A model generated the notes under the pieces. It saw only the letters and a program-made list of their open reading frames with translations, searched no databases and was not told the DNA's origin. 64,000 bases of DNA from a virus, in the IMG/VR virus record IMGVR_UViG_3300046318_000144, positions 20,770 through 84,769 of that record. One strand, given 5' to 3'. The position numbers and the translations under genes were made by a program. Positions within the stretch are counted from its first letter, which is position 1; each line of letters starts with the position of its first letter. This document shows positions 3,001 through 59,187 of this stretch, in pieces.

Positions 3001-3149
3001 CACTCACGACAGGCAACATAGCAGTGCTAGAAGGATTTATAAAACCATCTGCTGATGGTACAGTTAAGTTCCAATTCTCTTCAGAAATCTCAAACTCTGC
3101 TATTACAGCACTACCAGGCTCATTCATCGAGTATGGTCAAGTATTATAG
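3..3149 (+). CDS. Collagen-like tail fibre, 5'-truncated by the window edge
   Basis: The frame is open from the first bases of the window without a stop, so the gene starts upstream; the ATG at 1254 is internal. The visible ~1,048 codons hold long Gly-X-Y runs (GAT, GPT, GPQ repeats) that should form a collagen-type triple helix. These runs are broken by globular inserts: a small domain around 186-330, a domain beginning at about 1227, a C1q/TNF-like jelly-roll candidate around 2000-2440 (aromatic GYY pattern), a short insert at 2550-2680, and a non-collagen C-terminal domain from about 2700. Phage collagen-like proteins are usually trimeric side fibres. Adsorption is the inferred role. The next gene is another fibre 13 bases downstream, suggesting one operon. 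The fibre identity is strong; the receptor is unknown. Confidence 0.88.
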
Positions 3150-3162
3150 GAATAGATAACAC

Positions 3163-18463: not shown

Positions 18464-18937
18464 TTATTTGAGTAGATTAAGTGGCTTCCAACCACTCTTA
18501 ACTAAACGTAGCAGACCATGGCGTATTGCGTCAAGTGCATGCCCTTCGCCGCCTTTATGCCAGTATTCAATCTTCTTTAGAGACTCATTAGAAAACATAG
18601 CCTTAGCGTCTGCTGGAGATTGAAAATAAATGTCATCAGGCTTCATACCGATGTCCATCATTATCTGCTTAAGAATGCCAATCTGCTCTAGAGAAAAAGG
18701 AGCTTGAGAGTTACGTACAGTCTGAGCATTGATAGTGAATCGCTCACACACAATCTCGATTGGTGTACCAGTCATGACTGCAGTACCTATTGCATCTCTA
18801 ATAGGTGCTGCATATTCATCTTGCTGATACTCACCAGACATTAAAAGCTCTGGCTCTTGACCTACGGCATAGTGGAATAGTGCAATACCACTAGCCTTTC
18901 CTGGATCAACTGCAAGTATTAAACGATTATCAGACAT
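18464..18937 (-). CDS. RuvC-like Holliday junction resolvase
   Basis: The 157-residue protein has the RNase H-fold catalytic acids of RuvC: D11 in LAVDPGKASG, E65 in EIVCERF, and H133-x-x-D136 with R139-H140 in GHALDAIRH. Phage RuvC-like resolvases cut Holliday or Y junctions before packaging. The gene overlaps the DNA polymerase gene by eight bases, in the same replication/recombination unit. Confidence 0.88.
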   Translation of the reverse strand: MSDNRLILAVDPGKASGIALFHYAVGQEPELLMSGEYQQDEYAAPIRDAIGTAVMTGTPIEIVCERFTINAQTVRNSQAPFSLEQIGILKQIMMDIGMKPDDIYFQSPADAKAMFSNESLKKIEYWHKGGEGHALDAIRHGLLRLVKSGWKPLNLLK

Positions 18938-40499: not shown

Positions 40500-42497
40500 T
40501 TAGTACTCTACAGCAGCTGCGGTAGCGCCACCAGTGGTGTCGCGAAGTGCTGCAGCAACACCGTTAACCGAGATGCTTGAGGTGATCTTGAGAGACTCAA
40601 TACCAACCTTAGCCACGTTCTCGAAGGTCTCAACGAACATCTTGTAGTCGTTGGTGCCAACCAGTGACGAGTCACGGATGATACCAAGGTCAAGAGTTCC
40701 ACCGTCAAGGAACAAGAATGTTCCCTCGGCGAAGAGATACCAGCTGAATGTGTCTGGGAACTCAAGCAGACCAGTTGCACCCTGAGCACCGAAGTAGTTC
40801 AGGTCTGGAGAAGCAACGAGTGAAACGTTGCTGTGCGATAGGTAGCCGTCAATCTCAGCCTTCGATACTGACAGAGTACCATCACCAGGCATAGCCAGGG
40901 TGAGGTCAGCTGCCATTGCATCGTATACCCACTGAGGAACAATAGCCTTCAGCTGAGTAGTTGCAGAGATGCGGTGACGTGAGCGGTAAGCAACTGCAGC
41001 ACGACGGATCTGTACTAGGAAGTCACGACCGAAACCGATAAGTGACGAAGTAGTAACAGCGGTTGAAGCGTCACCAATCTTGGTAAGAAGGTTTACTTCA
41101 GCCTCGCGTGCGTGCTGTACAAGAGCTAGCTCGTTGTGACGAGCAATCAACTCTGGGTAAGCACGAGTCATCAAGTTACCGAACTGGAGCTGTAGGGTTA
41201 CAGCGTCAGTTGAAACAGTCTGCTCTGCAGCAGCTGAAACGGCGAGTGATGACTTAGTTGCTGTATCAGGGTCTGCGTCAACTGCAGCAGTCCAGATACC
41301 AACGGCGTCAGCGTAGTCACCCGAAGCAAAGCTTGGAGGAGTTACGAAGCGGATACCGCCACGGTCAGCCTGGAAGCGAGGGAGTGAGTCACGGATTGGA
41401 CGCTCGGTGGTTGAACCAAGACCGAAGATGTCATACTTAACCTCGAAAGGTGCAGCGTGACCACCAGAAGCAACAAGTGCTTCCTGGCCAGAAACGGCAC
41501 TAATCTTCAGCTGGTTTGCCTCTGAATCGGTTGTCAGAGTGCGTGACTCTGGGAACTGAGTGGTGATAGATGCAACAATGTGCTGCTCTCCATCTCCACC
41601 GTTGACACGACGAAGCGAGTGGATACGCTTTTCCATAGCCGAAGCTACTTCGTTCATGTCGTTAATTGTGCTTCCCGCTGTGTAACCAGGGATGTCAGCA
41701 CCAGCAGTAATTGCAACTGGGGCCTCTGTTACCTGAATTACAGGCTGACGGTCAGCTGGAGCCTCGAAAGGCTGTTCTGCTGCGGCGGTCACGGTTGCCT
41801 GCTCTTCCTGCTCTTCTGGAGCAATAGTGTTTTCTTGGGTTGATGCCTCTGAGCCTTCAACAGCTTCTGCTGCAGTTTCTGAAGTTTCTTCGGCGGAGAA
41901 TTCTGCCACTGTGGCAGATGCCTCGGTTGATTCTTCAGTAGATTCCTCTACTGCGTCTTCTGGGTCGCTAGTCGACAGTTCTGATCCGTCTTCTTCGATT
42001 GTTGATGCTGTTTCAGTTTCCGAAGCGAAAGCCTTTTTAGGTTCCTTCTCTTCTTCTTCTTGGGTCTCTCCGATTTCCTCTTCAGTGGTCTCGGGCTCTT
42101 GGCCTTCGATCTCTGCAGGAGCTTCCTCTACTGGAGCTGCCTCTTCAGGCATCTCTTCAGTAGGGGTCATTTCCTCTGCAGGAGTTTCCTCTTCTGGGGT
42201 CATATCGGCTAGTTCCTCTCCATCAGTTGCGACGTCTTCGGTGCTTTCGCCCTTAACGCGTGAGATAGCCTCAGCAGCCTTGGCAGCTAGCTCTGCAGCT
42301 AGTGCCTCGCGGCGTGAAAGCTCACCTCGCACTGTGTCAAGTGCATTAGCAAGTGACGTCATAGCATCAACCGTCTCAGGAGTCGGCTCTTCGCCTTCGA
42401 CCGATTCAAACTCGCTAACGATCTGTGACTGAAGTTCGCCGACTTGTTCGTCGGTTAGCTCCGCCATAGCGTCAAGCTGGGTATTGATGTGGTCCAC
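40500..42497 (-). CDS. HK97-fold major capsid protein with long acidic N-terminal (scaffold/delta) domain
   Basis: The start is a GTG at 42497 with an ideal AAGGAGGT four bases upstream. The 665 residues divide in two. Residues ~1-260 are very rich in Glu, Ala, Thr and Pro, with an N-terminal helical region and long EEE/PEE runs, and are probably a delta/scaffold-like domain. The C-terminal ~375 residues follow the actinophage major capsid pattern (FRxRHR-like segment IRRAAVAYRSRHRISATTQL near residue 510, VPQWVYDAMAADL, late FETFENVAKVGI region). The N-terminal part is presumably cleaved by the large maturation protease encoded upstream. The strong ribosome site and hairpin signals match high expression. 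Confidence 0.88.
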   Translation of the reverse strand: MDHINTQLDAMAELTDEQVGELQSQIVSEFESVEGEEPTPETVDAMTSLANALDTVRGELSRREALAAELAAKAAEAISRVKGESTEDVATDGEELADMTPEEETPAEEMTPTEEMPEEAAPVEEAPAEIEGQEPETTEEEIGETQEEEEKEPKKAFASETETASTIEEDGSELSTSDPEDAVEESTEESTEASATVAEFSAEETSETAAEAVEGSEASTQENTIAPEEQEEQATVTAAAEQPFEAPADRQPVIQVTEAPVAITAGADIPGYTAGSTINDMNEVASAMEKRIHSLRRVNGGDGEQHIVASITTQFPESRTLTTDSEANQLKISAVSGQEALVASGGHAAPFEVKYDIFGLGSTTERPIRDSLPRFQADRGGIRFVTPPSFASGDYADAVGIWTAAVDADPDTATKSSLAVSAAAEQTVSTDAVTLQLQFGNLMTRAYPELIARHNELALVQHAREAEVNLLTKIGDASTAVTTSSLIGFGRDFLVQIRRAAVAYRSRHRISATTQLKAIVPQWVYDAMAADLTLAMPGDGTLSVSKAEIDGYLSHSNVSLVASPDLNYFGAQGATGLLEFPDTFSWYLFAEGTFLFLDGGTLDLGIIRDSSLVGTNDYKMFVETFENVAKVGIESLKITSSISVNGVAAALRDTTGGATAAAVEY

Positions 42498-42621: not shown

Positions 42622-45600
42622 TTAGGTAAGGAGTCGGAGCAGTTTGCTCATCTCAGATTGAACTTCACCCTGAGAGTAAACATCTGCTCCAGACATGTAG
42701 GATTTCAGATTAGCGGTGGCAACATCTGCATCCTCTTTACCGATCTTGTCTTCGACTCTAGAAATCATCTGATCGATGAGATCCTTAAGTCCCGACGGTA
42801 GATCGCTAAATCTTAGTTTTTGCGCTTCCTGACCAAAAGGTAGTGGTAGGTTGGCAATTACACGGCCCAGTTCGCGAGCAGTGTTTTGGACATTCTCCAA
42901 AGCCTTAGGATTAAGTGCTTTACTATCCAAACGGTCAATCATTCCGAGTAGCTCGGAGCTAGCCTTCGCTGAGTCAACATAGTTTCCAGCAAACTCCATA
43001 TCTTCAGCAGCCTGAACCTTATTAAGAGCATCCTGTAGACCAGCAACACCTAGGTCTTGCTTTAGACGAGCGAGAACTTTACGGTACTTACCCTTAGCAT
43101 CACGAGGCTGAGTCACACCAGAGATGTACTTGGTACGACCCTCTTCGTCGTAGGCATCCTTAGCAGTAGTCTTACCAGCTTTAATGTCTTCAGCTAGTTT
43201 GATCTCTTCTTCAGTCTGCTTGTCAGCTTCTATTTTCGCTTCTTCAAGCTTCTTAAGATCTTCTTCAGATATTTGGTCATCAGGACCCGCTGCAGTGAGG
43301 CTAGAGATTCTAGAACGCATGCTAGCAATCATTGCCTCTGCATCCATAGAGCCAGCTGCCTTCCAGTTTTCTGGGATAAGGTCAGCCTTACCTAGAGCAC
43401 GAGCACGCTTGCGAATGTGTGTACGAACCTTTGCACGATCTTTAGGAGTTGATCGACCATATGCCTTAATAGCATTCTTTAGGTCTGACTCGTTACGGAT
43501 TGGGTAAGAACCATCTGGAAGAGCGTGACCCTTTTCAGCTAGATCCTTACGCTCTTCTTCCGAGATAGATGCAAGCTCTGCAACAGCAGATGCCACTAGA
43601 GCACGCTCTCTCAGTTCCTCTGCCTTAGCTGCAGCAGCTGTAATAGCGTATGTACGGGCTGCTTTCTTAGCATCCTTAATACGAGAACGTAGGTCTGGAG
43701 CGTTAGAAGCCAGTTCCGACAAGTTCTGGGCACGGATAGCTAAAGTAGTGAAGGCTTGGCTTCTAAGGATAGCCATATCCTGAGCACCAGCAGCCACAAG
43801 AGCCATAATCTTTCCAGATGCAACTAGAGCACGAGCAATTGGGAATCCTGGAACGTTAACCTGACATACAGCAACTAGCTCTAGTGAGCCACCGATTGGA
43901 CGCCAGTCACCAGAAGGAGCAGATGCACGTAGGGCACGAATCTGAGCCTCGTTAGCATCTGGGCGTAGTGAACCAGCTACCCAAATACCGTACTCGTCTT
44001 CACCAGCATGAACATCAGCGATAGCAGATGCAGTGTCGTCGTAGTGCTTAGCAGCCTGAGCAGCATCCGCACGCAACGATGCGTGTCCACCAGCGAGGGT
44101 TAGCTGACCAACTGGAACATCTCGTCCCGCATCAGTACGGCAAACGCCAGTGTGGAAGTAAGCATACTTGCTACGTGAGCGAGGAGGCTTAGTTGCGCTA
44201 GGCATACCAATGTGGTTTACATGCCATGCAGCAATGTGACCATAGATACGACCACTAGGGTCTACAGTCAGTGGTGTTGCCTTGCCAAGGTTTGGGTTAT
44301 TGAACCACTCGTCTGGTGGAGTCATTGGAATAGCTGACTCTAAGAATCCAGAACCAGAAGCGGTTAAAGCTTCAGCTGTTGCGAAAGAATCGAACGACTC
44401 TTCCTCATAGACTCCGTCTTCTGGAATCAATGTGTCCTCCTGGTCTCCCGCATTGTTTTCATCAATATTGATGACGCATTCTTGGAATGCTGGCTTAGCT
44501 ACAATTGTAGCAGCCATTACACGGGCGTGATTTATGATGAGTTTTTGCTTGCCCATTTCGGTTTCTTTTTTATCTAATTCCGAAGCGGTGTCGTCTTTAT
44601 GATTCTCTTCAGTTGCCTCAAACTGATCTAGATCAGCAGAAACTCCACGAATAAATCCGTGTCTGACTAGTCGTTCTGCTTCCCTACCGTAAGGCCCAGT
44701 ATCAAATACACCACGAGCATTACCAATGCCACCGTCGATACGCTCTACGTAATCAATTCGACCAACTACTACAGATCCTTCGTGACCGTCACCAGTCTTA
44801 ATCTGCCACAGTAGTGGTAGTGGTAATTCACGAATCTCTATAGATTCGTTATTGAATTTTCTTCCGTCTCCAGATTCAACATTCTCTGGTAGAAGTAGTG
44901 GAATGGTGAAAGCTGAACCATAACCCATTGGGATAGCACCAGCAGTTATGGCAAATCTAGAACGTGCAACATCTGCAGTCGCAGTTAGAACTGCCTTAGA
45001 GATCATTGCTTCATCAAAAGCCTGTTCTGACTCAAACATTCCAAATGCTCGATTGTTTCTACGTCCAGGATTCATCCTGCTTCCAGTGTAAACACCAGTA
45101 GCATCCTTGTGACGGAGCTGGCAGTAACCCTTAGCACGAACACCCATGTACTTAGATAGGTGGCGAACGCAACGCTTCCAGTCGCCAGGAGTTCCCCAGC
45201 GGATTTTAGCAGCACCCTTGCCACGAGTCCAATACTGGCGAAGTTCCTCTGCATTACCACGGTTACGGTCTAAACCACCAGCAGCAATTAGTGCTTGGAA
45301 TTCATCATCTCCACACTTAGCTAACTCCTCTAGAGCATCTACTATCTCTAGGTCTGGAGTCCAAGATCCCTCATAGAGATCATCTTCCTCTGAGTGGATA
45401 TCTTCGATAGGCATAAGCATATCTTTGTCAGTAATATGGGTAGGCTCACCAATGTTCTCGCCCCACACTTCTTCCATTAGGAACTCTTCTGCCCCTAAGT
45501 TACGGTGTGATTTATCAAGCTTAGCGTGGGTAGATGTGTACATACCCAATGCGTCCTTGTGGCGAAGCTGGCAGTAGCCCTTCGCTCTAATACCAAGATA

Positions 45601-47592
45601 TTTACTTAGGTGACGAACGCAACGCTTCCAGTCTCCTGGCTGGCCCCAACGAATCTTAGCTGCACCCTTACCAACTGTCCAGTAGCGGCGAAGCTGCTCT
45701 GCTCTACCTCTATTACGGTCAACTCCACCTGCAGCGGTAATTGGATTACCGTACAAGAAGTTTAGGATGTAGTCAGTAGTTAGGATAGACGCTGTTACGT
45801 TCTTAATACCATCAACCTGCTGAAGAATGTTATTTAGGATGGTGTCATCCAGCTTTACAACAGGAGGAGGGGTAGCTGACTTTAGGTCAAGCAGAACCTG
45901 AGAATCTTCTACCCACTTGCCATCTTTTCTAACGTAAGTTATTGGTTCTGTAGTAGTTATGGTTTTAGGGACAATAGCTACTAAGTCCATAACTGCCTGA
46001 TTGTCGTCAGGAGATACGATAGCTAAGTACTTTGGTGGGACGTCTGATGTTTTAGGTGTTAGTTGCTTTTCTGGAGCAGCAGCTACAACTGATTCAATCG
46101 AATAGGTAGATTTTGACCTAGGCTTGTATTTGTTACGCTCGCTGGCTACCCATGAAGGCCAGTTGTTGAGCATCTCATGTAGCTGCTCTTTAGGCAGCTG
46201 AGGTAGCGTACCTGGGAGGTGCGCGATAGGGCTGTTAATAGGAGTTCTTGGCTCTCCCAGAATCCCTGAAGTATCTAGTGGCTTGGTAAAGTCCTGAGCT
46301 GGAGTTTGCGAGGTTTCCTCAAAGCTGTCCTCAGCCTGAGTTTGCTTGGCTGGTACAGCAATTTGTGTACCATTATCAAGCTTTACCTGAACATTACCTG
46401 TAGCCTTATCGACGCCAGTAATTTCTCCTCTACCGTTATTGCCATCTTTACCGACAACTACACGGCTTCCTGTAGAAGCAAATCTTCCATTAGCATCTCT
46501 TAGAGCACCCTTAGCGATGTTAGAACGCTCTTCAGGAGTGTACTCTCCGTCACCAGCCTGGGTAGTCTTCGGAGCTGTAGAGCCAGCAGCAGTAACCGAG
46601 TCAACTAGGTTCCAGTCTTCTTCAGCAAAAGCATTTACAACCAAAGCTGCTTCTTCAGGATCGATCTCGTCGATAGATACGTTAGAGTATGGCCTCTCCT
46701 GGAATAGTGCAGATACAACAGCAGCAGACGCTGGGTCTACGATGTAGTGGTCCTTTTCTACATTGTCATATGGGTCGTCTAAAGCTTTGTCATAGGTGTA
46801 GATATCTCCATCTACGTGACCTAAGTCATCCCAAGCGCAGTCGTCCCAGACGTAAACCTGACCATCCATGTCAATCTTGTAGAGGCGGTCAACTCCAGAA
46901 CCATCTAGCCTTATACGAATTAAAAATTCTGGACCATGTTCTGGGTCTAGTTCATAAGCAACTTTAAAAGAATTAATGTCGGAGTCATAGCCTTCATGTA
47001 TAGCTTCTGGCTCACCCTGCGGAATGATCAAGTAAGCATCTGCAGTTACAGGCTTCTTGTCTTCCCTGTCAACAATAGACTTAGCCCAACGCCATGCGGC
47101 ATCTCCACCCCATAGAGCCCAAGCAATGCGACCATTCGAGGGGAAGTTATCTTCCCCAGGAGTCCAGCCTTTACCCTTTTTATCAACTTCATGACGAGGG
47201 AAATAGCGAGCAATATGGCGGACTTTCTTTAAACCAATCTGACCACCTTCGGCAAGAATACGAGCAGTATTCATACCTACAGGAGTGCCACCACGGTGGT
47301 GCTCCTTGTGCCACTTAAGGGCTTTTCTAGCTTCGACAACTACACCATCTGGAATAGTATACATACGGCCAGCATCAGCTGTTAAAGCAATATTAGATAG
47401 AGAGTTTAGAGCAGCATCAGCAAGCTGAATGGTGTCAGTGTCTATGTCGTCTGAGGTAGACCACTCTTCACTTGTGTAGCTCGAAAGAGCTCCACTTTCA
47501 ACGACCATCGAGAGGTCGGTATTGACAAGGACAGCTTTTTCCCCGCTAGAGAAAAGAGCTACTGAACCTCTACTACCTAAATAGTCAGTCAT
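42622..47592 (-). CDS. Giant capsid maturation protease polyprotein
   Basis: This 1,656-residue protein has actinophage prohead protease features in its centre: H937 (GDGHEGSVVVGRID) and S985 (IRGVSADLDQ), the likely catalytic pair of a U35-type protease, then a second region (GHIAAWHVNHIG, PVGQLTLAGGHAS, GEDEYGIWVAGSLRPD) that always accompanies such proteases. Around it are extra modules: an N-terminal domain with GWTPGEDNFPSNGRIAWALW near residue 145, two copies of a ~70-residue module (about 624-693 and 772-838, with GKGAAKIRWG and GDWKRCVRHLSKY), a ~1370-1420 LPDGSYPIRN segment, and a coiled C-terminus. It probably also serves as internal scaffold. It is several times longer than usual (~200-600). 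Confidence 0.82.
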   Translation of the reverse strand: MTDYLGSRGSVALFSSGEKAVLVNTDLSMVVESGALSSYTSEEWSTSDDIDTDTIQLADAALNSLSNIALTADAGRMYTIPDGVVVEARKALKWHKEHHRGGTPVGMNTARILAEGGQIGLKKVRHIARYFPRHEVDKKGKGWTPGEDNFPSNGRIAWALWGGDAAWRWAKSIVDREDKKPVTADAYLIIPQGEPEAIHEGYDSDINSFKVAYELDPEHGPEFLIRIRLDGSGVDRLYKIDMDGQVYVWDDCAWDDLGHVDGDIYTYDKALDDPYDNVEKDHYIVDPASAAVVSALFQERPYSNVSIDEIDPEEAALVVNAFAEEDWNLVDSVTAAGSTAPKTTQAGDGEYTPEERSNIAKGALRDANGRFASTGSRVVVGKDGNNGRGEITGVDKATGNVQVKLDNGTQIAVPAKQTQAEDSFEETSQTPAQDFTKPLDTSGILGEPRTPINSPIAHLPGTLPQLPKEQLHEMLNNWPSWVASERNKYKPRSKSTYSIESVVAAAPEKQLTPKTSDVPPKYLAIVSPDDNQAVMDLVAIVPKTITTTEPITYVRKDGKWVEDSQVLLDLKSATPPPVVKLDDTILNNILQQVDGIKNVTASILTTDYILNFLYGNPITAAGGVDRNRGRAEQLRRYWTVGKGAAKIRWGQPGDWKRCVRHLSKYLGIRAKGYCQLRHKDALGMYTSTHAKLDKSHRNLGAEEFLMEEVWGENIGEPTHITDKDMLMPIEDIHSEEDDLYEGSWTPDLEIVDALEELAKCGDDEFQALIAAGGLDRNRGNAEELRQYWTRGKGAAKIRWGTPGDWKRCVRHLSKYMGVRAKGYCQLRHKDATGVYTGSRMNPGRRNNRAFGMFESEQAFDEAMISKAVLTATADVARSRFAITAGAIPMGYGSAFTIPLLLPENVESGDGRKFNNESIEIRELPLPLLWQIKTGDGHEGSVVVGRIDYVERIDGGIGNARGVFDTGPYGREAERLVRHGFIRGVSADLDQFEATEENHKDDTASELDKKETEMGKQKLIINHARVMAATIVAKPAFQECVINIDENNAGDQEDTLIPEDGVYEEESFDSFATAEALTASGSGFLESAIPMTPPDEWFNNPNLGKATPLTVDPSGRIYGHIAAWHVNHIGMPSATKPPRSRSKYAYFHTGVCRTDAGRDVPVGQLTLAGGHASLRADAAQAAKHYDDTASAIADVHAGEDEYGIWVAGSLRPDANEAQIRALRASAPSGDWRPIGGSLELVAVCQVNVPGFPIARALVASGKIMALVAAGAQDMAILRSQAFTTLAIRAQNLSELASNAPDLRSRIKDAKKAARTYAITAAAAKAEELRERALVASAVAELASISEEERKDLAEKGHALPDGSYPIRNESDLKNAIKAYGRSTPKDRAKVRTHIRKRARALGKADLIPENWKAAGSMDAEAMIASMRSRISSLTAAGPDDQISEEDLKKLEEAKIEADKQTEEEIKLAEDIKAGKTTAKDAYDEEGRTKYISGVTQPRDAKGKYRKVLARLKQDLGVAGLQDALNKVQAAEDMEFAGNYVDSAKASSELLGMIDRLDSKALNPKALENVQNTARELGRVIANLPLPFGQEAQKLRFSDLPSGLKDLIDQMISRVEDKIGKEDADVATANLKSYMSGADVYSQGEVQSEMSKLLRLLT

Positions 47593-47598
47593 TTACTA

Positions 47599-47997
47599 CT
47601 AAACCGCCTTAAAGTCTTCCTCTGTAGGGTAGTCATCTTCTGGTGCTTCGCCATTGAAAATGCAATACTTTTTTAGATCTTCTTCTGTCAAGGTGCCATC
47701 AGCATATTTTTGATAAACAATTGACTTATCATTCTCATCGAATGCTTCATCATTATTCCAATCAATTAGGTATGATGCATATTCATTTCTATACATGAAT
47801 AATCTGTCACCATCACCATTGTCAACTGGCACCCAGGCGTCAGCTTCAGGATCATATTCTGAAGTAACGAAAGGGCCGTAGGATATGATTGTCTCGATTT
47901 TACGAGACTCTGGCTCTAAATAGATATATACGCTAGTATTAAATGTTTTGAGCTCAGTGTTTGGCTTATCACCTGGTAGAAGATAATTTTTTGTCAT
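47599..47997 (-). CDS. Acidic hypothetical protein, 132 aa
   Basis: I do not recognise this protein. It is very acidic and Tyr-rich, with no membrane segment. It resembles its upstream neighbour in style: both contain a YLEPE/YLEPV-type segment in the N-terminal part followed by a strand-rich middle, so they could be distant paralogues. Position between the giant polyvalent protein and the maturation protease suggests a virion or assembly role. Confidence 0.55.
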   Translation of the reverse strand: MTKNYLLPGDKPNTELKTFNTSVYIYLEPESRKIETIISYGPFVTSEYDPEADAWVPVDNGDGDRLFMYRNEYASYLIDWNNDEAFDENDKSIVYQKYADGTLTEEDLKKYCIFNGEAPEDDYPTEEDFKAV

Positions 47998-48017: not shown

Positions 48018-48392
48018 CTACCGTACAATTGGATTGTCGTTTTTATCATAGTTGCTCGCTGTGTCAAGACCAAAGTCTGTCATAGTAGGAGCTTCACCGA
48101 TAACTTTGATGTCTTTGGTACCATACAAAGTGTATAGAGCCCATACGACAGTATTTAGGTCCTTAGTTGTAGCGTCAAAGAATGGACCTTCAGGGGTAGC
48201 TGCAATTTCTCCAGACGGTCCCATTGCAAATATGAAGTCACGGACGCTTTGAGCAATAACATCAGCAGATCCTCTAGAACCATACAGGTAATCAACTTCT
48301 TCAGCCTGTGGGTTCCAGTTAACTTTTGAACCATTAACTACGAAAGTCACTGGCTCTAGGTAGATACCTAGAACCTCTTCTCTATCTTCCAT
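48018..48392 (-). CDS. Hypothetical protein, 124 aa
   Basis: The protein is acidic, with an N-terminal IYLEPVTFVVNG strand pair also reminiscent of the next gene (VYIYLEPESRK), then a helical segment near VIAQSVRDFIFAMGPSGE and a Thr/Tyr helix. No family is recognised. The start overlaps the stop of the giant protein gene by one base, so it is translated in tandem with it. Confidence 0.55.
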   Translation of the reverse strand: MEDREEVLGIYLEPVTFVVNGSKVNWNPQAEEVDYLYGSRGSADVIAQSVRDFIFAMGPSGEIAATPEGPFFDATTKDLNTVVWALYTLYGTKDIKVIGEAPTMTDFGLDTASNYDKNDNPIVR

Positions 48393-51300
48393 TACTTCTC
48401 CTCATTAGGGACTACAGCATTTCCTGGACCGAATCCTTCAGTAGGACTCCAATCATTCAATGCTAACAGCATTCCAGTAGCTAGGTGTTTAACGTTGAAG
48501 TCCGTACCCTCATCACGGTTACGTCCAAATACACCCTTGATACCCTCAATCTCGGTCTTCTTACTAGAACTTCTGTAATACTTACCAGTCTCTGGGTCAT
48601 AGAACGCTCCAGGATATAGTCTATCCTCGCCAGTCTCTGGGTCTAGTCCCATTACCGACAGTCCATATGCTCCAGATGCAATTCCAGGATTAGTGAATAG
48701 GTCCTGCATAGCCATAGTAGATACTTCAGATGCCTCATCATTAGGGTTTAGGAATGCTTTCCTATTCAAGAAAGGATAAGCCTTAGCCATATAAGGCTGT
48801 GACATTCCCTTAATTGCTAGAGCCTGCTCTGATCCACCCTTATTTAGGTTAATGATAGGAACTAATCTCTCATTATCGGTTCCAGCATCAACTACAGCTC
48901 TGTCATAAAGCCAAGCGTGCTCGATTGCTCTCTGGTTAGGGTCTAACTTCTGAGTAAAGTGAGTCAACTCGTGAAGTGCTACGTCAGTAGCTGGGTTTAG
49001 TCCCTCTTCCTTAGCAGCAATTCTACGGTCCTTACCTCTTCTATTAGATAGGTGGATTTCATAACCCTTACCATTCTTGAGAGGGGCAAAGTGACCTCGC
49101 TTTACACCAGCTTTAACCTCTAGCTTGAGATTATTCTCTTTTAGGTGCTCTATCATCTTAAGGATGTTAGATCTCGGCATGTGCTTAAACGCTTCTGACA
49201 ATGCTTCAGCAGCCTTTATAGTGCTCTTCGAGTTTAGAGGAGCCTTCTTACCAGCAGTGACTAGTAGTCCATCAAACTCATCTAATGACACGTTGTCGAA
49301 CTGAACTCCAGCAGCTTCTAAGGCTTCTTTAGCAGCTACTCGCTCAGCTTGGTGGACATCATCTAGGTAGTCAGTAGCCTTAGCACGCTCCTGAGCCTTA
49401 TCCTTCGAGTACTGGTCAAAGTAGACTTTCTTAGCCTCTTCTGTAACTGCAGGATCAGTCAGAGCTTTGTATGCAAAAGCTAGCATAGGCTTCTTAGCAC
49501 TAAAGTCACTATCTTCATCTTCTAGATAGTAAGGTAGTCCCTTTACTCCAGCTTTTCTTAGATCCTTACTGAGCTTGGCAACGTCAATAACCTCTTTGCC
49601 ATCTTCAGTCTTAACGTACCCAGCGGCACGCATCTCATTGAATACACCAGATACTCCAGACTTACTGTCTTTAATACCATTAATAGTATTTTCCTCTAGG
49701 TCCAGAGCTGCTCTTCTTGCCACGGCGTAGTCGTTTCCAACCTTTGCTAGCGAGTCTAGGGCAGCACGAGCAATGTCATCGTAGGTAGCATCGTCAGGAA
49801 TGTCATAACCTTTTTGACGAAGGATATCCTTCATTCTTTCAGGTACTCCAGACCAAACTTCTTCGCCCATCGCAACTACTTCATTTTTGATATTGGTAGC
49901 TTCTTCGGTAGGGGCAACTGCCCATGTGTTCTCTACATTTTTACCTGAGATAGGTTTGATTGCTTCAGCATTCTCTGGCGTATTATCTGCAGAGTTCTTA
50001 GATATAGTCTTTGAAGGTTTTCTACCCTGCTGTCCAGATGAAATACCGAGAGCTGCAGCACGCTTAGCTACGTCAGTAGTGGCAGCTGGGCTAGGAATGG
50101 CATCTCTATTTGAAACTTCTGGTTTTAGAGGAGATGTATTAACCTTGCTACCCTCTTTAACTACTAGAGTATCAGTAGCCCCGTTGCCTCCAGGTATTCT
50201 ATACTTAACTGCAGTTACACGGCTTCCATCTCTTGCAGTTCCAGACTTAGGCTTACCAACTACTTGACCTAGTAGATCTCCAGTATCGTTATAGATTTTT
50301 TGGTTTTCAGCTAAGTTTTCAGCTACTTCAGTCTGACCATAGGATTCAGTACCGACACCCTTGTATATAACGGTATTTGTGTCAAGGTCAAAAATCTGAC
50401 CAGATGCACGGTCTACACGATACTTATCTGGCTGCTGCTCAGCGCGGAAGAAGGTTAGGTCATCTTCGTACAACCAAGGAGCCGATGAAGTTGGCTTAGT
50501 GTCAGGGGCAGTCTTTGTCATCTTTTTAGATGCCATAGGTAGTACGCTACCGTTGGCAAACTCTACCTTAACGTAGTCACCATAGACGTAAGACTGCTGC
50601 TCCTCGTCGCCTTCTTCACCTTCTTCGCCTTCACCACTATTGATTGATGGCGTGTGCTCTTTAAGTTTTCTTACAACTGTTCCGACTGCAGTCTCTCCGA
50701 CGTTATTTTTGATAATTACTCGGTCTCCAACTTGGAGGTCTTGACCATTCTTATCAGTGTGAGGGCGGTGAGTAGTGATGTCATCCTGGGCAGGCATATT
50801 GCTGTCTAGGTAGCCGTTAAACTGCTCCATCATCTGGTCTAGCTCACGCTTACTGCTATTTACATAGCGCTGCTCCATAATTCCTCTAAGAACATCTCTA
50901 GCAGTATCGCGAGCCGCCTGAGTGTCGGGGAGTGAGCGTAGGTGTGTAGCTAGGAGTGAACGTGCTTCAGCATAGTCTCCTGAATCCAAAGATTCTAATA
51001 TAGAACCTACTTCAGATCTCTTCTGTCTTAAGAAGTTCTTACCGTCAGTGTGAGTTACCTGAGCTCTACCGTAGAGGGCAAGGCTAGTTTCTTCTTCTGG
51101 GGTTCTAAGCTTTAGAGTAGTGTCAGACTTACCAAGGCCAAGCTTTGCCATCTGCAAGAGTCGGTCATATCTACCAGCTCTTAGGAGCTCAATTTCACCA
51201 ATAATACCGCCGTAGTTCTCACGGTACTTCTTATCTTCTTTAGGGTTACTCTTGTACTTAGTCTTAGCTGGGTCACGAGTGATTTTACTGATAAGTGATT

Positions 51301-54300
51301 CTAGACCAGCAGTACTCTTACCTGGCTCACCAAATAGCGACTTCAAGCTCTTGTGTGCCGAGTAGTGCCAGTATTCCTGAGACTCTCCAGTTTCGGTATT
51401 AGTTACCTTTACCTTGACTCTCCAGCTATTATTCTTGGCTTCTTTAAATGAAAGCTCTAGAGTGTGCTCGTCCCCAGCACCAGGTCCAAACTCATCTAAG
51501 AATGTTTCACGGTAGTAGGTTACACTTCCGTCTTCTTGAACCTTTGCTCCTGGGACAATCTTTTCCAAGATGAGCTTAATGTCCTTAGATGCATCACCAG
51601 AACCTCCACCCCACTTGTCTAGTACCTCTTGGATATTTTCATTTCTACCAATATTAGAGGTTCCATCATCACGGCGGTCCTCTGGGACAGCCTTCCATAG
51701 AGCTGATGGCTCATTAGCTGGTGGCTGAGGGGTAGCAGTCTTCTTAGAGCTAATCTTACGAGTTCTCTTAGGAACTAGTCTCTTAACTTTGTTGCCACTG
51801 TTATAGCGTCGTAGGCCATGCTCTAAGGCAAGCTCGTTGATTTGACCATTTTCAATAGCATCGATTAGGTCTCCAGTAGCATTTAGAGCGTCGAAGATCT
51901 CCTCACCAGATGCACCATCCTCGATCATCTTAGCGATAGAGCCGTCCTTGTCAGCTGGACCAACAATCTTCTTTAGACGGTCCTTATTTACCTCTTTACC
52001 ACGACTAACCAGCGCTGGGAAGTCCGCAGCAAGTTCATCATAGTTTTTATAAACACGGCTACCTAGTACGTCTTCATTGCTACGAGCACGTAGGGTAATA
52101 CTTCCATCTTTATTCTCTTTGATGTTCCAACGGTTTCCACCAAATACACCAGTGTACCCGCCAGGAGTACTGAGCTGTTCAATCCAGTCTTTCAGGAACT
52201 TATGTGTACGCTTGTCGCCTCCAGGACCAGACTTAGCTACTGGTGCAGTTTCTGGTACATCAGTGTCAAAACTAATCTCGCCATTATCATCCATAGCATA
52301 TAGAGCATTAAGTACTCTATCTTCCTTAGGAATAGCGGCTTCTTTAGCAGCTGTCTGCTCCAGAATCTGAGACTGCTTCTTTTCCTCTGAATCAACAACA
52401 TCCATGTTGAAGTCAGGCTCGCGCTGCATTTCTTTATTAGCACGAGCGAGACCGTCTTTGCCCTGGTAATTTTCAGTCCACTTTAGTGACCCCATGAATA
52501 GGCGTTTCTTAGCACGTGTAAGTGCTACATAGGCCAAATCTAGTTCTTGGTCGTCAGGGAATGCTACTGCACCAGTTTCAGGGTCAGTAACCTTAGGGGA
52601 ACCAAAGTCATCACCAATAATGATGTTGTCCCACTCAAGACCCTTTGCTCTGTGAGCAGTTGTAACCAATACATCGAAGTCTTCGGTATCTCCAGTGTCT
52701 AGTTTGAATAGGTTAGCAATATTGTTTAGGTAGAGCTCTCTATCAGAGTCTTCATCAATAACTAGCTCGTACTTGGTATTACCATCTGCATTTCTCTTAG
52801 TCCTCCAAGTAGGTAAGTCCCCATCTGGTTTTAGGATACTAGGGTCATTTTTGCTGAATGAGTTTCCAGAACCATTATTCTTACCTCCGATAACTAGATC
52901 ACGGAAGGTGGCACCTTTTAGCCCAGTAAGCTCAGCGTCTAAATTGCCATCAAGAATGAGCTTGTTTCCATAAACTTCCCACTTAATACCAGCAAACTCT
53001 CCGCTATCACCATCTGCAGCAGATAGGTTAGTAATATCGGCAAGGTCAATGTGACGCTCTGGCTGAACGATAACTCTAGACATAATACTCTCTAGAGGTT
53101 TAAGGTCTTCCTCAAACTTAGTTACCAGTCTTGCCCAGTAGGCGGCTTTTCCAGTAGGGTTCCTATTCATCTCGGCGAATAGGCTTTCCTTACTGTAGAT
53201 ATCTTTAAGGTCTGGGTGTACTACGGATGGTTGCTTGTCTCGTGAGTCTTTATCTTCTAGAATCCACTTAAGGTTTTCTAGTGCATCATCAACATCCTGC
53301 TTAAGTACAGAAGTTACAGCTACTTTTTTGCCACGATCGAGGAACTTCTTCATCTGGGCAAATCCACCCATGTTATTTCTAACGACAACGGCAGTAGTTC
53401 CGTCTAGACCATCTATGTTGTCAGAGGTTAAGATTTCTCCCTCGCCGTAGCCTTCGTTAGTTGACTTTAGACGGTACTTCTCACCAAGCAAGTTCAAAAG
53501 TGAGTTGGCAGCAGTAGAGATTTTTGTACCAAAACGACGGGTAGTGCTTAGGTTTAGAGCTGCTTCAGATAGACCATCAGAGTAACGTCCAATAGCATTC
53601 TCTGCTCCCATGAATCGGTAAATAGACTGAGCATTGTCACCAACCATAGATAGCTTGATGTTTCCAGCCCTGACGTTGTCCATTAGGACTTTTTCAATGG
53701 CAGGAACCGTGTCCTGAGCCTCATCCATGAATACATGGGTAATTGGTCTACCATTGTGCTTAAAGTCAGCGATATTAGGGTTAGTTAGTGTCCACATCTT
53801 GGTAGCAACTGCTGGAGAAATCGCAGTCGCACCCTTAACTACAGCCATCTTAGGCTTAGGATTACCCTGAGCATCTACGGCTGGCTGACCAGTCTTTTTA
53901 TCAATAGATTGTTCATAGATCGGGTCACCCTTTTCATCAAAAAGCTTGACACCATCTTCGTTTTTAGCCTGAACCTTCTCCCACACAGGAACTGAGGTTA
54001 GGTCCTCCCAGTATTTATTAGCAGATTCTACAATCTTTGCCTTTGCTTTTGCCTCATCTTCTGGTGTCATGTCTGGCCCATTGATGTGGTCGAAGTTCAC
54101 ATGCTGTGGGCCAATCTTCTCGTCAGCACTGTTGCTGTAATTTTCTACAGCATTAATTACTAACTGACCGTGAGCCGCTGGGCCTTGGTTCTTGCCCTTG
54201 ATGTTTATATCGTCTAGTTCTAAGAATTTAGCTATAGCATTAGCACCACTCTTGTGGAAAGTCTCGATAGAGCGGTAGCGGGCTCCCATAGCTCTAGAGT

Positions 54301-56017
54301 CTTTACCAAATGCTGAGCGTAGGAATTTGTAACCAAACTGAGAAGCAGTGGTATTAGCTAATGTATTATCTGGAACCTTAGTCTTTGCTTCGTTAGCATT
54401 CTTTCGGTTGAACTGTAGGTATAGGACTCTAGCCTCTGGCTTGAGACGCTTAAGAGCTTTAGTAATTGCAACGAATACAGTGGTCTTACCAGCACCAGCA
54501 CCAGCAAGTACGGCAGTGTCTTTATCAGCTAGAACAATAGCTGCTGCAATATCACTCTGCTCCTGGCTTGGCTCGAAGCCGAAGTCCTCGGTCCAGTCTT
54601 CTGGCTTTGCCATCTTAGCTAGTTCTTCACTACTAATCTTGTCTCGAACTTCTTGTTCTGGACCAGTAAATGTGGCAACAGTTGCAGGGTCTACTTCTTC
54701 AGGATTGTCATCCTCTTCAGAAGCAACTACCTTAGGTTTCTTTTCAGGCTTAGCAGCTTTTTCAACCTTAGCCTTAGGGGCACGCTTTGGTTTCTCTGGA
54801 GTGGCAGGAGCTTCTGGAGTTACCTCGGCTGCAGGTGTAGCGTCAGGGGCAGCATCCTCATCAAAGACGATCTCATCTGGGTCAAAGTCAAGAGCATCAT
54901 TAAGTACCTGGTCTACATTTACATCTTCACCAGCACTTGCTTTTTCAAAAGCTTTAGCAGTGGCTTTCTCGAGAGCCTTAGCCTTTTTAGCCTCTGACTC
55001 GGCTGCCCACTGGTCTTGGCGTAGCTTTCTAAACTCATCTGGGGTTACTGGAGTTATACCATTTTCCTGAGTAGGGATGGTACCTTTATATGCACCAGGA
55101 CCTCTACCAGAGTCAATACTGTCAATGAGCTCGTATGGAGAACCTAGAGGTCTACCCTCTTCGTCCTGCTCGCTTTCGATGTATCTACCTTCATAGAGGT
55201 AACCATCACCACGAACGTGAGCCTGGACTAGCTTTCCAGTTCTAGGCATGCTGAGGAACAGCTCATCGCCTTCTTCTACATTTTCTAGCCAATTCTTGCT
55301 GGCAACAACAATTCTCTTAGGCTTCTTTGCCTTCTCTGTTTTAGCCTTAGCAGGTGCTTTAGCTGGAGCTTCTGCAGTAGGAGCCTCTGGAGCTTTCTTC
55401 TCTCCACCAGCAAAGTCATCAGGATTTACACCAGACTCTTCTAGGAGCTTCTTTGTTTCCTCTGGGTTAGTAGTCTCGTAACCGCCAGGCATCTTAGCGA
55501 TAGGTGACTCTTCGCGACCAGCCTTCTCGGCAGCACGCTCTTCTTCTGTAAGCTCGCCCTTAGCTAGACGCTCATCTTCAGGTGTAATGTCAGTGCGAGG
55601 AATCTCGTCAACATAAGGAACTTCATTGTCTGCAAGTTCATTTATTTCATTACCGAAGATATCTTTCTTAGGCCCTGTAGAGAGTCCCTGCTTCTCTAGA
55701 TATTCCTTAGGAATAAGACCTTCGAACTGCTCCATATTGTTGGAGTCAACTTCATAGACACCACTCTTGATACCCTTGTCATCCTGGCCCTGTACAAGAA
55801 TACGACCCTTACCTGGCTTACCAGCAGGACCGACGTACACACCGTGAATGGTAGCAGCAATTAAGCGACCACGGATTCGGATCTTGAATAGGGTCCCGCG
55901 ACCCATCTCCATCCACTGGCCGTATTTATCGCGAGGCTGAATTCTCCAGAAGCCTCTGTTGGCACCATCATTAGTACCAATCATGGCTAGCAGGGGGGAG
56001 AGTTGATCTTCAGACAT
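48392..56017 (-). CDS. Giant polyvalent protein: SF1 (UvrD/PcrA-like) helicase plus HExxH zincin
   Basis: I prefer the ATG at 56017, which follows AGAAGG, over a TTG 21 bases upstream; the product has 2,541 residues. The N-terminal ~480 residues contain two SH3-like segments, Ala/Pro/Lys-rich linkers and acidic stretches. An SF1 helicase follows: Walker A AGAGAGKTT (K511), motif II DEAQD (D765), QSIYRF, TAHRAKGLEW and motif VI YVALTRAKKR (R1168). The C-terminal third has an SH3-like GDRVIIKNN stretch and a zincin site HELTH (H2349-H2353) with acidic downstream candidates. This composition, among head genes, matches the polyvalent proteins described by Iyer and colleagues, thought to be packaged and injected to act on DNA and host proteins. 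Confidence 0.85.
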   Translation of the reverse strand: MSEDQLSPLLAMIGTNDGANRGFWRIQPRDKYGQWMEMGRGTLFKIRIRGRLIAATIHGVYVGPAGKPGKGRILVQGQDDKGIKSGVYEVDSNNMEQFEGLIPKEYLEKQGLSTGPKKDIFGNEINELADNEVPYVDEIPRTDITPEDERLAKGELTEEERAAEKAGREESPIAKMPGGYETTNPEETKKLLEESGVNPDDFAGGEKKAPEAPTAEAPAKAPAKAKTEKAKKPKRIVVASKNWLENVEEGDELFLSMPRTGKLVQAHVRGDGYLYEGRYIESEQDEEGRPLGSPYELIDSIDSGRGPGAYKGTIPTQENGITPVTPDEFRKLRQDQWAAESEAKKAKALEKATAKAFEKASAGEDVNVDQVLNDALDFDPDEIVFDEDAAPDATPAAEVTPEAPATPEKPKRAPKAKVEKAAKPEKKPKVVASEEDDNPEEVDPATVATFTGPEQEVRDKISSEELAKMAKPEDWTEDFGFEPSQEQSDIAAAIVLADKDTAVLAGAGAGKTTVFVAITKALKRLKPEARVLYLQFNRKNANEAKTKVPDNTLANTTASQFGYKFLRSAFGKDSRAMGARYRSIETFHKSGANAIAKFLELDDINIKGKNQGPAAHGQLVINAVENYSNSADEKIGPQHVNFDHINGPDMTPEDEAKAKAKIVESANKYWEDLTSVPVWEKVQAKNEDGVKLFDEKGDPIYEQSIDKKTGQPAVDAQGNPKPKMAVVKGATAISPAVATKMWTLTNPNIADFKHNGRPITHVFMDEAQDTVPAIEKVLMDNVRAGNIKLSMVGDNAQSIYRFMGAENAIGRYSDGLSEAALNLSTTRRFGTKISTAANSLLNLLGEKYRLKSTNEGYGEGEILTSDNIDGLDGTTAVVVRNNMGGFAQMKKFLDRGKKVAVTSVLKQDVDDALENLKWILEDKDSRDKQPSVVHPDLKDIYSKESLFAEMNRNPTGKAAYWARLVTKFEEDLKPLESIMSRVIVQPERHIDLADITNLSAADGDSGEFAGIKWEVYGNKLILDGNLDAELTGLKGATFRDLVIGGKNNGSGNSFSKNDPSILKPDGDLPTWRTKRNADGNTKYELVIDEDSDRELYLNNIANLFKLDTGDTEDFDVLVTTAHRAKGLEWDNIIIGDDFGSPKVTDPETGAVAFPDDQELDLAYVALTRAKKRLFMGSLKWTENYQGKDGLARANKEMQREPDFNMDVVDSEEKKQSQILEQTAAKEAAIPKEDRVLNALYAMDDNGEISFDTDVPETAPVAKSGPGGDKRTHKFLKDWIEQLSTPGGYTGVFGGNRWNIKENKDGSITLRARSNEDVLGSRVYKNYDELAADFPALVSRGKEVNKDRLKKIVGPADKDGSIAKMIEDGASGEEIFDALNATGDLIDAIENGQINELALEHGLRRYNSGNKVKRLVPKRTRKISSKKTATPQPPANEPSALWKAVPEDRRDDGTSNIGRNENIQEVLDKWGGGSGDASKDIKLILEKIVPGAKVQEDGSVTYYRETFLDEFGPGAGDEHTLELSFKEAKNNSWRVKVKVTNTETGESQEYWHYSAHKSLKSLFGEPGKSTAGLESLISKITRDPAKTKYKSNPKEDKKYRENYGGIIGEIELLRAGRYDRLLQMAKLGLGKSDTTLKLRTPEEETSLALYGRAQVTHTDGKNFLRQKRSEVGSILESLDSGDYAEARSLLATHLRSLPDTQAARDTARDVLRGIMEQRYVNSSKRELDQMMEQFNGYLDSNMPAQDDITTHRPHTDKNGQDLQVGDRVIIKNNVGETAVGTVVRKLKEHTPSINSGEGEEGEEGDEEQQSYVYGDYVKVEFANGSVLPMASKKMTKTAPDTKPTSSAPWLYEDDLTFFRAEQQPDKYRVDRASGQIFDLDTNTVIYKGVGTESYGQTEVAENLAENQKIYNDTGDLLGQVVGKPKSGTARDGSRVTAVKYRIPGGNGATDTLVVKEGSKVNTSPLKPEVSNRDAIPSPAATTDVAKRAAALGISSGQQGRKPSKTISKNSADNTPENAEAIKPISGKNVENTWAVAPTEEATNIKNEVVAMGEEVWSGVPERMKDILRQKGYDIPDDATYDDIARAALDSLAKVGNDYAVARRAALDLEENTINGIKDSKSGVSGVFNEMRAAGYVKTEDGKEVIDVAKLSKDLRKAGVKGLPYYLEDEDSDFSAKKPMLAFAYKALTDPAVTEEAKKVYFDQYSKDKAQERAKATDYLDDVHQAERVAAKEALEAAGVQFDNVSLDEFDGLLVTAGKKAPLNSKSTIKAAEALSEAFKHMPRSNILKMIEHLKENNLKLEVKAGVKRGHFAPLKNGKGYEIHLSNRRGKDRRIAAKEEGLNPATDVALHELTHFTQKLDPNQRAIEHAWLYDRAVVDAGTDNERLVPIINLNKGGSEQALAIKGMSQPYMAKAYPFLNRKAFLNPNDEASEVSTMAMQDLFTNPGIASGAYGLSVMGLDPETGEDRLYPGAFYDPETGKYYRSSSKKTEIEGIKGVFGRNRDEGTDFNVKHLATGMLLALNDWSPTEGFGPGNAVVPNEEK

Positions 56018-56931: not shown

Positions 56932-57396
56932 TTAGCGAATGCCTAGTGTTGCACGTAGCTGCCAGTTCCACTTCTGATGAGCATCAATGCGCTCAGCTAG
57001 GAAGTTAGCAATGCCTTGCTGATTTACAGCGTTAGCTTCTTGGAAGGCTTCATCGAGACGTCCAAGTACAGCTTTATTGTTGTCGTACAGAGACTGAACC
57101 ATAAGCATCCCGTTACCGTCCGAGATTCTAGGCTGGTCGCATATGCATGACATGTCAATAAAGTCTTGTAGAAGATACGGGGCATCAAAGCCAAGCTTGA
57201 GGATATCCTCAGCTAGCGGGTCTATAGCACTGTCAACATCTTCATAGATTTCTGAGAAGAATCCATGCAGCTGGGTGAACTCTACTCCAGAGACGTTCCA
57301 GTGGTATCCCTGAGCTAGAGATTTAAAAATAACTAAGTCGCTAAGAACTTTAGCTAGCTTCTCGGCTAATTGGACGTTTCCATCAACTTCGTGCAT
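56932..57396 (-). CDS. Dps-family ferritin-like DNA-protection protein
   Basis: The 154-residue protein is a clear Dps by its ferroxidase motif: H32-W-N-V-S-G, H44, D59 and E63 (SAIDPLAEDI), aligned with the Listeria innocua H31, H43, D58, E62 ligands; the residue at Listeria D47 is Ser48 here. Dps proteins form dodecamers that bind DNA and detoxify Fe(II) and H2O2. It has no long basic N-terminal tail. It is encoded ten bases after the portal, with AAGGA before its ATG. It may protect DNA in the capsid or infected cell from oxidation, or be packaged with the genome. Confidence 0.9.
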   Translation of the reverse strand: MHEVDGNVQLAEKLAKVLSDLVIFKSLAQGYHWNVSGVEFTQLHGFFSEIYEDVDSAIDPLAEDILKLGFDAPYLLQDFIDMSCICDQPRISDGNGMLMVQSLYDNNKAVLGRLDEAFQEANAVNQQGIANFLAERIDAHQKWNWQLRATLGIR

Positions 57397-57405
57397 TTGA
57401 TTTCC

Positions 57406-59187
57406 TTATTGGGTTGGTTCCGCTAGAGGTGCAGCTGGAGCACCAGATGGTTGGATTGGTTCAGCAGGGGTTGGTTCCGCTAGAGGTGCAGCTGGAGCAG
57501 CACCCTCTGGTGCAGGCTGACCACCTTCAAGGATCTGCTGAATGTCTTCTGGAACTGGAGCACCACTTTCCTGCTGAGCTATATCACGAGTCAGGTTCAT
57601 AACATCTGGAGCGACTGCCTTAAGCATGCTCTCTGTCAGCTCTGGAGTGATCATACCCTTAGAGATAATTAGTCGAAGGGCTAGCTCTACTGGAGTAGGA
57701 GCATCTGCTTCAGAGAAGCCATGAGCCTTACGCCAAGTGTCGTAAGATACCGCCATCTTCTCGAACCCTGAGTCAGCGTCTGCAGCTCGGTCGTTACGGG
57801 TGGCAACCTGCGATGGGTCATACCATATGACTAGACGATCTACGTCAGCCTCTGGGTACCCATTAGCAGTCAGATATGGACGCAGGTATACAACTGTAAG
57901 AGCATCAGCAATCAGAAGCATCAGCGGTTCGATGTGTGCCTTGTAGAGTGACTCGTCAATCTGTAGAGCATTTGAGTACTTAACGTTGGCAAGACCTGTA
58001 ACGATGTCTTTTGGAACATCAAGACCCTGCATGATACGCTCTAGAACTCGGTCTGCACGCTGAGCCAAGGCAGGGTCAAAGCTACGCTCAAACTTAAACT
58101 GCTTAATCTTGTCGCCAAGCTCTGCAGGACCACGAATAATAAGTGGAACTACAGCGCTCGCCGAGTCTTCATCCTTAATAGGAGTAGTCATAGCATCGAT
58201 GAGCTGGTCTTCAAAGTCATCAGCAGCTTCTTCGGTGTTGTAGACCTCGTTGTACTCGCCATTTTCATCGTATGGATAGTCTGGGTCTGGAGACGCTGCT
58301 ACTGAAAGACCGTCAGGCAGGTACAGAGCACCCGCATTGAGGCGAGAACGGGCCGTAGCGCGGAAAGTACGGTTCAATAGCAGTAGTTCCGCACAAAGGT
58401 CCAAGAGGCCGCGTAGCGAGCTGTCAGCCTCTTGCGAATATCGTGGGTGAGCCTTCCAGATTCGACCAACAAACGCCCCCTTAGGGAGTCTGATTGCATC
58501 TGGGTTAGTGTTAGACATCATTGATGAGCCACCGCCACCGACCTCGCGGCGTGGGTTGATGATGTAGTTACCCTTTTGATCAACCTGAAGTTCATCAGTC
58601 GAGCGGATATCCCAAGTCTCTGGAAGTCCTGAACCAATACGTTCTGGAATCTGTACTAGGTAGCACTCGCCAGTAACCTGCAAGTTTAGAGCAGCGTCCT
58701 TAAGAAGACCAGCCTGGCCTCCATAAGCAGAGCTTAGACGTGCAAGTGCACGTTCAGCTGCCTGAGCAAGTCTTTCGTCAATCTTCTCTGATTTACGAAC
58801 TGAGACGGGAGCTTCAGCTGCATTATCAACTACCGCAGAGTAGAGACGAATGCGTGATACAACAGATGCTACTAAGTTGAAGGCGTACTTGACTTCACCA
58901 ATTGAGTCGTAATACTCCCAGGCCTCTGACTGCCAACTTGAAGATGCTGACTGTCTACGATTTTTGAAGATTGCAGCTTCGCCCTTGTCATCAAGTTTGA
59001 TCTGAGCAGCTGCGGCAGTAAGTGGGCGTGGTGTATTGAAGGCCAAGGCTTGTGGGTACGTAATACCAAACGAATCTAGCGAAGGTGGAGTTAGAGATTG
59101 TGCAGAAACAGGAGCGGATGCACGAATACCTGCAGAACCAACTGCTGGTCGTGCTCTGTTATTTTTTTGGCGCTTGAATATGCCCAA
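57406..59187 (-). CDS. Portal protein
   Basis: The start is a TTG at 59187 with AGGAG six bases upstream. The 593-residue product follows the HK97/actinophage portal pattern: SEAWEYYDSIGEVKYAFNLV near residue 86, YLVQIPERIGSG in the wing, a LLLNRTFRATARSRL crown/stem helix near 271, and the VPKDIVTGLANVKYSNALQID clip-to-stem transition near 390. The C-terminal ~40 residues are Ala/Pro-rich with a repeated APAAPLAEPT unit. It forms the dodecameric ring at the packaging vertex. Location: TerL, two small genes, portal, then Dps. Confidence 0.9.
   Translation of the reverse strand: MGIFKRQKNNRARPAVGSAGIRASAPVSAQSLTPPSLDSFGITYPQALAFNTPRPLTAAAAQIKLDDKGEAAIFKNRRQSASSSWQSEAWEYYDSIGEVKYAFNLVASVVSRIRLYSAVVDNAAEAPVSVRKSEKIDERLAQAAERALARLSSAYGGQAGLLKDAALNLQVTGECYLVQIPERIGSGLPETWDIRSTDELQVDQKGNYIINPRREVGGGGSSMMSNTNPDAIRLPKGAFVGRIWKAHPRYSQEADSSLRGLLDLCAELLLLNRTFRATARSRLNAGALYLPDGLSVAASPDPDYPYDENGEYNEVYNTEEAADDFEDQLIDAMTTPIKDEDSASAVVPLIIRGPAELGDKIKQFKFERSFDPALAQRADRVLERIMQGLDVPKDIVTGLANVKYSNALQIDESLYKAHIEPLMLLIADALTVVYLRPYLTANGYPEADVDRLVIWYDPSQVATRNDRAADADSGFEKMAVSYDTWRKAHGFSEADAPTPVELALRLIISKGMITPELTESMLKAVAPDVMNLTRDIAQQESGAPVPEDIQQILEGGQPAPEGAAPAAPLAEPTPAEPIQPSGAPAAPLAEPTQ
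57411..57499. repeat. 32-base direct repeat at the 3' end of the portal gene
   Basis: Two identical 32-base copies lie at 57411-57442 and 57468-57499, in the Ala/Pro-rich C-terminal coding part of the portal gene, in frame with each other (offset 57 bases). They encode the repeated APAAPLAEPT unit. The perfect identity indicates a recent tandem duplication. Confidence 0.95.

Follow-up and report, generated by a model that had tools for sequence, protein, structure and literature searches.

Why would a phage keep a single 2,541-residue protein, joining a DNA helicase to a putative metallopeptidase, among its head genes? We examined the window, a 64,000-nucleotide stretch corresponding to bases 20770-84769 of the 84,769-base virus record IMGVR_UViG_3300046318_000144, which comes with no completeness estimate and is probably a fragment. 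The source virus is a tailed phage of the type infecting soil and freshwater actinobacteria, and the hosts of its isolated relatives are Arthrobacter and Microbacterium. The open reading frame (hereafter the giant) runs from 56017 to 48392 on the minus strand, with an ATG at 56017, a stop at 48392-48394, and no internal stop; a TTG start further upstream would add 7 residues. The frame is intact, as an earlier note based on the letters of this DNA had claimed, and a chance or open reading frame artefact was rejected, as 4 other distinct phages encode the same four-part protein. Apart from the unusual size, nothing speaks for an assembly or frame-fusion artefact, and recurrence on 4 independent contigs leaves that explanation a negligible likelihood. 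The giant and its neighbors are arranged as follows.

57406..59187, minus strand: portal protein (phrog_776, E 5.8e-107)
56932..57396, minus strand: Dps/ferritin-like protein (PF00210, E 2.1e-15), seen also in L204, L073, L067, and L094
56092..56916, minus strand: orf274, 274 aa, upstream neighbor, position kept in L186, L200, L204, L214, L073, and L045
48392..56017, minus strand: polyvalent-type giant of 2,541 aa, whole open frame, with 4 distinct relatives of the same domain order (2485-2642 aa)
48018..48392, minus strand: orf124, conserved downstream neighbor by neighborhood comparison
47599..47997, minus strand: orf132, conserved downstream neighbor by neighborhood comparison
42622..47592, minus strand: capsid maturation protease polyprotein, 1,656 aa, matching head maturation proteases, with a motif like that of the giant's N-terminal tag (N-tag) at aa ~364, RDANGRFASTGSRVVVG
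40500-42497: major capsid protein, downstream of the protease polyprotein

This gene order agrees with the location given in the earlier note, between the portal/Dps genes and the capsid protease and apart from the replication genes, which lie ~28 kb or more from the giant.

5273-7870: primase-helicase
15619-16557: PD-(D/E)XK nuclease
16557-18383: SNF2 helicase
18930-20747: PolA

Several other features of the window were recorded. The Dps/ferritin-like protein encoded between the portal gene and the giant might be a packaged DNA-protecting protein, and the protease polyprotein is far above the usual protease size, with its first ~890 residues mostly lacking an assignment. The SNF2-type helicase adjoins an AAA protein as well as the PD-(D/E)XK nuclease and has a weak match to a DarB-like antirestriction PHROG. 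At 1254-4422 on the plus strand, 2 neighboring genes match collagen-like tail fiber families.

Within the giant, we identified the following segments.

55568..56017, minus strand: N-tag, aa 1-150, conserved in 30-35 slot proteins, model pLDDT > 90
54578..55570, minus strand: linker, aa 150-480, moderately acidic and Pro/Ala-rich (22% D+E, 15% K+R)
52298..54610, minus strand: SF1 UvrD/FBH1-like helicase cargo, aa 470-1240, by Pfam, PHROG, PDB profile, and motifs
50618..51580, minus strand: conserved core domain, aa 1480-1800, common to slot proteins with and without a helicase
50510..50722, minus strand: second SH3-like barrel, aa about 1766-1836, by AlphaFold2 model and Foldseek
50138..50275, minus strand: third SH3-like barrel, aa about 1915-1960, by AlphaFold2 model
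48395..49297, minus strand: zincin-like metallopeptidase domain, aa 2241-2541 (HELTH at 2349-2353, Glu 2431), by conservation and model

The N-tag carries the motif QxRDxxGxWxEMG, with Q27, R29, G39, and G63 invariant in the alignment, and was modeled (AlphaFold2-type, from an alignment leaving out the rows from annotated phages) as a 5-strand barrel at about residues 41-98, with pLDDT > 90 over most of it. Foldseek of the N-tag against the PDB returned no significant fold, and because its SH3-like neighbors there were nonsignificant, the label "SH3-like" refers to predicted topology. For the 2 later barrels, Foldseek returned the PHF1 Tudor domain with prob 1.0 and TMt 0.67-0.78, but with E about 0.3. 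The several SH3-like segments proposed earlier are thus represented by three modeled barrels, and the proposed acidic linker by residues 150-480, of which the first ~60 are conserved. Single-sequence scans of IMG/VR with the N-tag or the zincin gave no match, alignment queries did find relatives, and a profile search of a collection of genome contigs found no relative of the giant.

By its motifs and Pfam scores, the helicase region belongs to the SF1 UvrD/Rep helicases. Motifs I to VI are all present (I at K511, II at D765, V at about 1119-1128, VI at R1168), and the 3 residues named in the earlier note are exactly placed. Pfam UvrD-helicase (PF00580) matched at 492-808 (E 3.3e-18, 66.8 bits against a cut-off of 23) and UvrD_C (PF13361) at 1092-1176 (E 5e-10, 39.8 bits against 25.6); the giant also matched the PHROG helicase family phrog_1967 (E 3.6e-59), and the best PDB sequence match of the helicase was F-box DNA helicase 1 (E 1.3e-16). 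Human FBH1 and bacterial UvrD, Rep, and PcrA have the SF1 helicase core in common with the giant but are cellular proteins lacking its phage tag, core, and zincin. In the helicase tree, the slot helicases and 7 truncated or related giant helicases formed one clade of 23 rows (SH-aLRT 97), separate from 67 stand-alone phage helicases, and the window's helicase grouped with those of L186 and L204. A stand-alone (replicative or repair) phage SF1 helicase was rejected on this branching.

The C-terminal domain appears to be zincin-like, judging by conservation and model topology, in line with the HELTH zincin named in the earlier note. The HExxH motif and the downstream Glu do not vary across 10 diverged sequences, the 9 others being 29-40% identical to the window's, and these active-site residues are retained despite the low overall identity among relatives. 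The AlphaFold2 model predicts a helix, three strands, an HExxH helix, and a Glu helix, the element order given for zincin-like MPTases by Iyer et al. (PMC5512222). Neither single-sequence nor alignment-profile searches of this region against Pfam and PDB profiles gave a significant peptidase match, so catalysis is suggested by motif, conservation, and topology. Foldseek of the model found no zincin in the PDB, its single weak hit being a SprT-like viral match (E 0.008). Cousins with an HEFGH-type motif match metalloproteases weakly; hhalign aligned the 2 zincin types in a short local stretch at HExxH (P 0.003, probability 10%), which does not support treating HELTH and HEFGH types as one family.

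Searching IMG/VR through the portal, we found 36 other core-bearing open reading frames, some of them near-duplicates. The N-tag opens 35 of these 36, and in L059 it lies on an adjacent frame. The full order of N-tag, helicase, core, and zincin was found in 4 distinct metagenomic phages (L186, with L187 alike, L200, L204, and L214), whose giants measure 2,485-2,642 aa and in which the order orf274, giant, orf124, orf132, protease is kept wherever the locus extends that far. Many slot proteins are compact, at ~900 aa, with the N-tag and core alone; other combinations are N-tag, core, and zincin in L067 and N-tag and zincin in L180 and L181. Because full four-part forms coexist with the ~900-aa forms, the helicase can be seen as cargo in a backbone. 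On the portal tree, helicase presence requires 7 changes, at least 3 of them forced by well-supported branches, with the reservation that some "no helicase" states may be mistaken where a second giant is located beyond the fetched stretch. Sequence comparison thus shows the N-tag and core as a constant backbone and the helicase as a swappable insert, repeatedly gained or lost; this status as a removable insert was missed in the earlier note.

All 4 sibling phages encode a second N-tagged giant upstream, of 1,819-3,659 aa, between the portal gene and orf274.

L254:3507-14486: second N-tagged giant
L255:3646-14484: second N-tagged giant
L256:4278-12323: second N-tagged giant
L204:1558-7014: second N-tagged giant

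ADP-ribosyltransferase (ART) domains were identified in 3 of the 4 (E 5e-13, 3e-31, and 1e-42), with up to three such stretches per protein, a GNAT acetyltransferase in 1, and DUF3626 in 3; ART and GNAT are typical polyvalent effectors according to Iyer et al. (PMC5512222). The window's own record holds a single N-tagged protein. Larger and divergent forms were also seen. Two slot proteins of 5,183 and 5,188 aa (L091:2348-17896 and L118:2984-18547) carry the N-tag and a helicase between portal and protease, and giants in which no N-tag was found combine an SF1 helicase match with an HExxHWT or HExxHWS zincin-type motif (L095:2-14179, L121:1605-10547, L135:2477-12676, L136:2114-10975, and L146:5033-13780), some of them adjoining a protease match.

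Related proteins occur in isolated phages. Arthrobacter phages Mimi (gp77, 2,709 aa, L001:9727-17856) and Atuin (gp71, 3,113 aa, L006:2693-12034) encode proteins annotated as "DNA helicase", a plain label that conceals their giant size and head-operon position. Both resemble the giant in lying directly past the portal and ahead of the protease, in an N-tag with the same motif, and in a helicase of the same clade; a core-domain match to the giant is not detectable in either. At its C terminus, Mimi gp77 has an HEFGH zincin-type motif, of another type than the giant's HELTH, and Atuin gp71, unlike the giant, has no HExxH. Microbacterium phage proteins Cece gp68, Pumpernickel gp82, and A3Wally gp85 share the slot and the N-tag, at 33-36% identity, but have neither helicase nor HExxH, and their bodies differ from that of the giant.

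The N-tag ties these proteins to the head operon. In 5 complete isolate genomes (186-195 kb), its profile found 1-2 sites each, in the head operon only: the slot giant, joined in Mimi, Atuin, and Pumpernickel by a neighbor before or at the capsid protease. The neighbors with these related modules are Mimi gp79, Atuin gp74, and the Pumpernickel protease (E 8e-7 to 1e-5). For the protease encoded in the window itself, the likeness consists of the motif at aa 364 and an iterated-profile match, the latter being weaker evidence because the profile may include protease rows. A search of the open literature found no virion proteomics for any phage of this family.

P1 DarB joins an SNF2 (SF2) helicase to a methylase, whereas the giant has an SF1 helicase and no methylase; membership in the DarB family was rejected, as neither a methylase nor an SNF2 match was obtained for the giant by Pfam, PHROG, and profile searches. 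The 251-kDa DarB protein was found in the P1 head by mass spectrometry, requires an N-terminal packaging signal, and blocks EcoK/EcoB restriction as an antirestriction protein protecting entering DNA, and its gene is ORF 10, beside those of the portal (11) and the prohead protease (12) (PMC9024508). The giant resembles it in its great size, its helicase module, and the location of its gene next to those of the portal and prohead protease; presence in the head is established for DarB. The DarB signal falls within 30 residues, and no relation between it and the giant's N-tag is known. In the giant Salmonella phage SPN3US, the prohead protease cuts N-terminal propeptides of 124-125 residues, close to the tag in length, from the ejection proteins (PMC5694885, PMC7411985). 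A protein of the N4 virion RNA polymerase type was rejected, as no N4-like RNA polymerase module was matched in the giant with Pfam or PHROG. Because the N-tag is restricted to the head operon, related modules occur in head neighbors, and P1 DarB sets a precedent, the earlier suggestion of packaging alongside the DNA and injection is strengthened, and we infer both from sequence and analogy.

At least 2 disparate domains (helicase, zincin-like, and SH3-like) lie in one polypeptide, the gene stands at a late site among the virion genes, and the sister giants are N-tagged ART and GNAT proteins; the polyvalent type proposed in the earlier note fits all of these. Iyer et al. 2017 (PMC5512222) describe polyvalent proteins with disparate domains per chain, among them zincins and UvrD helicases, with a late-gene context for the phage type and a 12,242-aa Streptomyces plasmid protein with UvrD among the examples. 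There, UvrD is placed in conjugative-element contexts of a few actinomycetes, in contrast to the phage head slot here, and no tag-plus-core backbone was found in the sections consulted (PMC5512222). Our search of the open-access literature returned no description of this family. Polyvalent proteins are already known as a class; new here are the tag-plus-core backbone in the portal-protease slot, the cargo of that backbone, a dedicated clade of SF1 helicases, and the ART/GNAT sister giants in the same phages.

The evidence leans towards the giant being a phage-type polyvalent (ejection) protein, DarB-like in action but with an SF1 helicase, because the slot is kept in isolates and the 4 siblings, sister giants bear ART and GNAT domains, the helicases form their own clade, and DarB offers a parallel. 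It is likely to be one form of an interchangeable cargo protein, carried inside the virion and acting on the new host upon entry. The N-tag and core would dock the giant inside the prohead, and the roughly 280-kDa protein would be packaged alongside the DNA and enter the host together with it. The zincin may then cleave its own polypeptide, freeing the helicase, or cleave a host protein, and the helicase would translocate on the entering phage DNA in the first minutes, protecting or processing it against host nucleases, as DarB does for P1. Action of the helicase on incoming DNA is plausible; the tree places it apart from stand-alone phage helicases. By precedent, self-processing by the zincin seems at least as likely as attack on a host protein (PMC5512222). 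That the zincin of this packaged protein mainly attacks a host protein, a defense factor or other, is rather doubtful: Iyer et al. allow both roles and zincin domains differ among relatives, but self-processing of polyproteins is the general logic favored in that work (PMC5512222).

The slot between portal and capsid protease, the N-tag-like modules within protease/scaffold proteins, and the existence of the backbone without a helicase would also suit a factor for head assembly or DNA packaging that remains in the producing cell or capsid, with a scaffold-like N-tag and core, a zincin trimming head proteins, and a helicase clearing or remodeling DNA at the portal. We regard this as unlikely, since close relatives can do without the helicase and zincin or exchange them, unlike a core packaging part, with 7 changes on the portal tree and at least 3 of them forced, and since effector domains such as ART and GNAT mark the sister giants. 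An intracellular replication or recombination helicase merely located in the head operon, its zincin regulatory or degraded, would be expected to have intact helicase motifs, which the giant has, and would match the simple annotation of the Mimi and Atuin genes; it is nevertheless very improbable, as the replication genes sit elsewhere (5273-7870, 16557-18383, and 18930-20747), slot and giant helicases branch away from stand-alone phage helicases, and the helicase is fused to a tag restricted to the head operon.

Extending the ejection-protein reading, we tentatively propose, at a little under an even chance, that in actinophage-type viruses the folded SH3-like N-tag (with the core) may be a general head-loading cassette that packages and delivers any fused cargo, whether SF1 helicase, zincins, ADP-ribosyltransferases, or acetyltransferase, and that the dedicated SF1 helicase lineage may have evolved to escort phage DNA during the first minutes of entry. 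What had been a single odd open reading frame becomes a testable family, with a conserved backbone and swappable enzymes beside the portal gene, that includes phages of the Mimi, Atuin, and Cece types already isolated and cultured. Should the tag load cargo into heads, it would provide a sequence signature predicting ejected effectors in actinophages, where many candidates now carry "DNA helicase" or "hypothetical" labels, and would make it simple to test whether phage DNA is escorted by a helicase as it enters.
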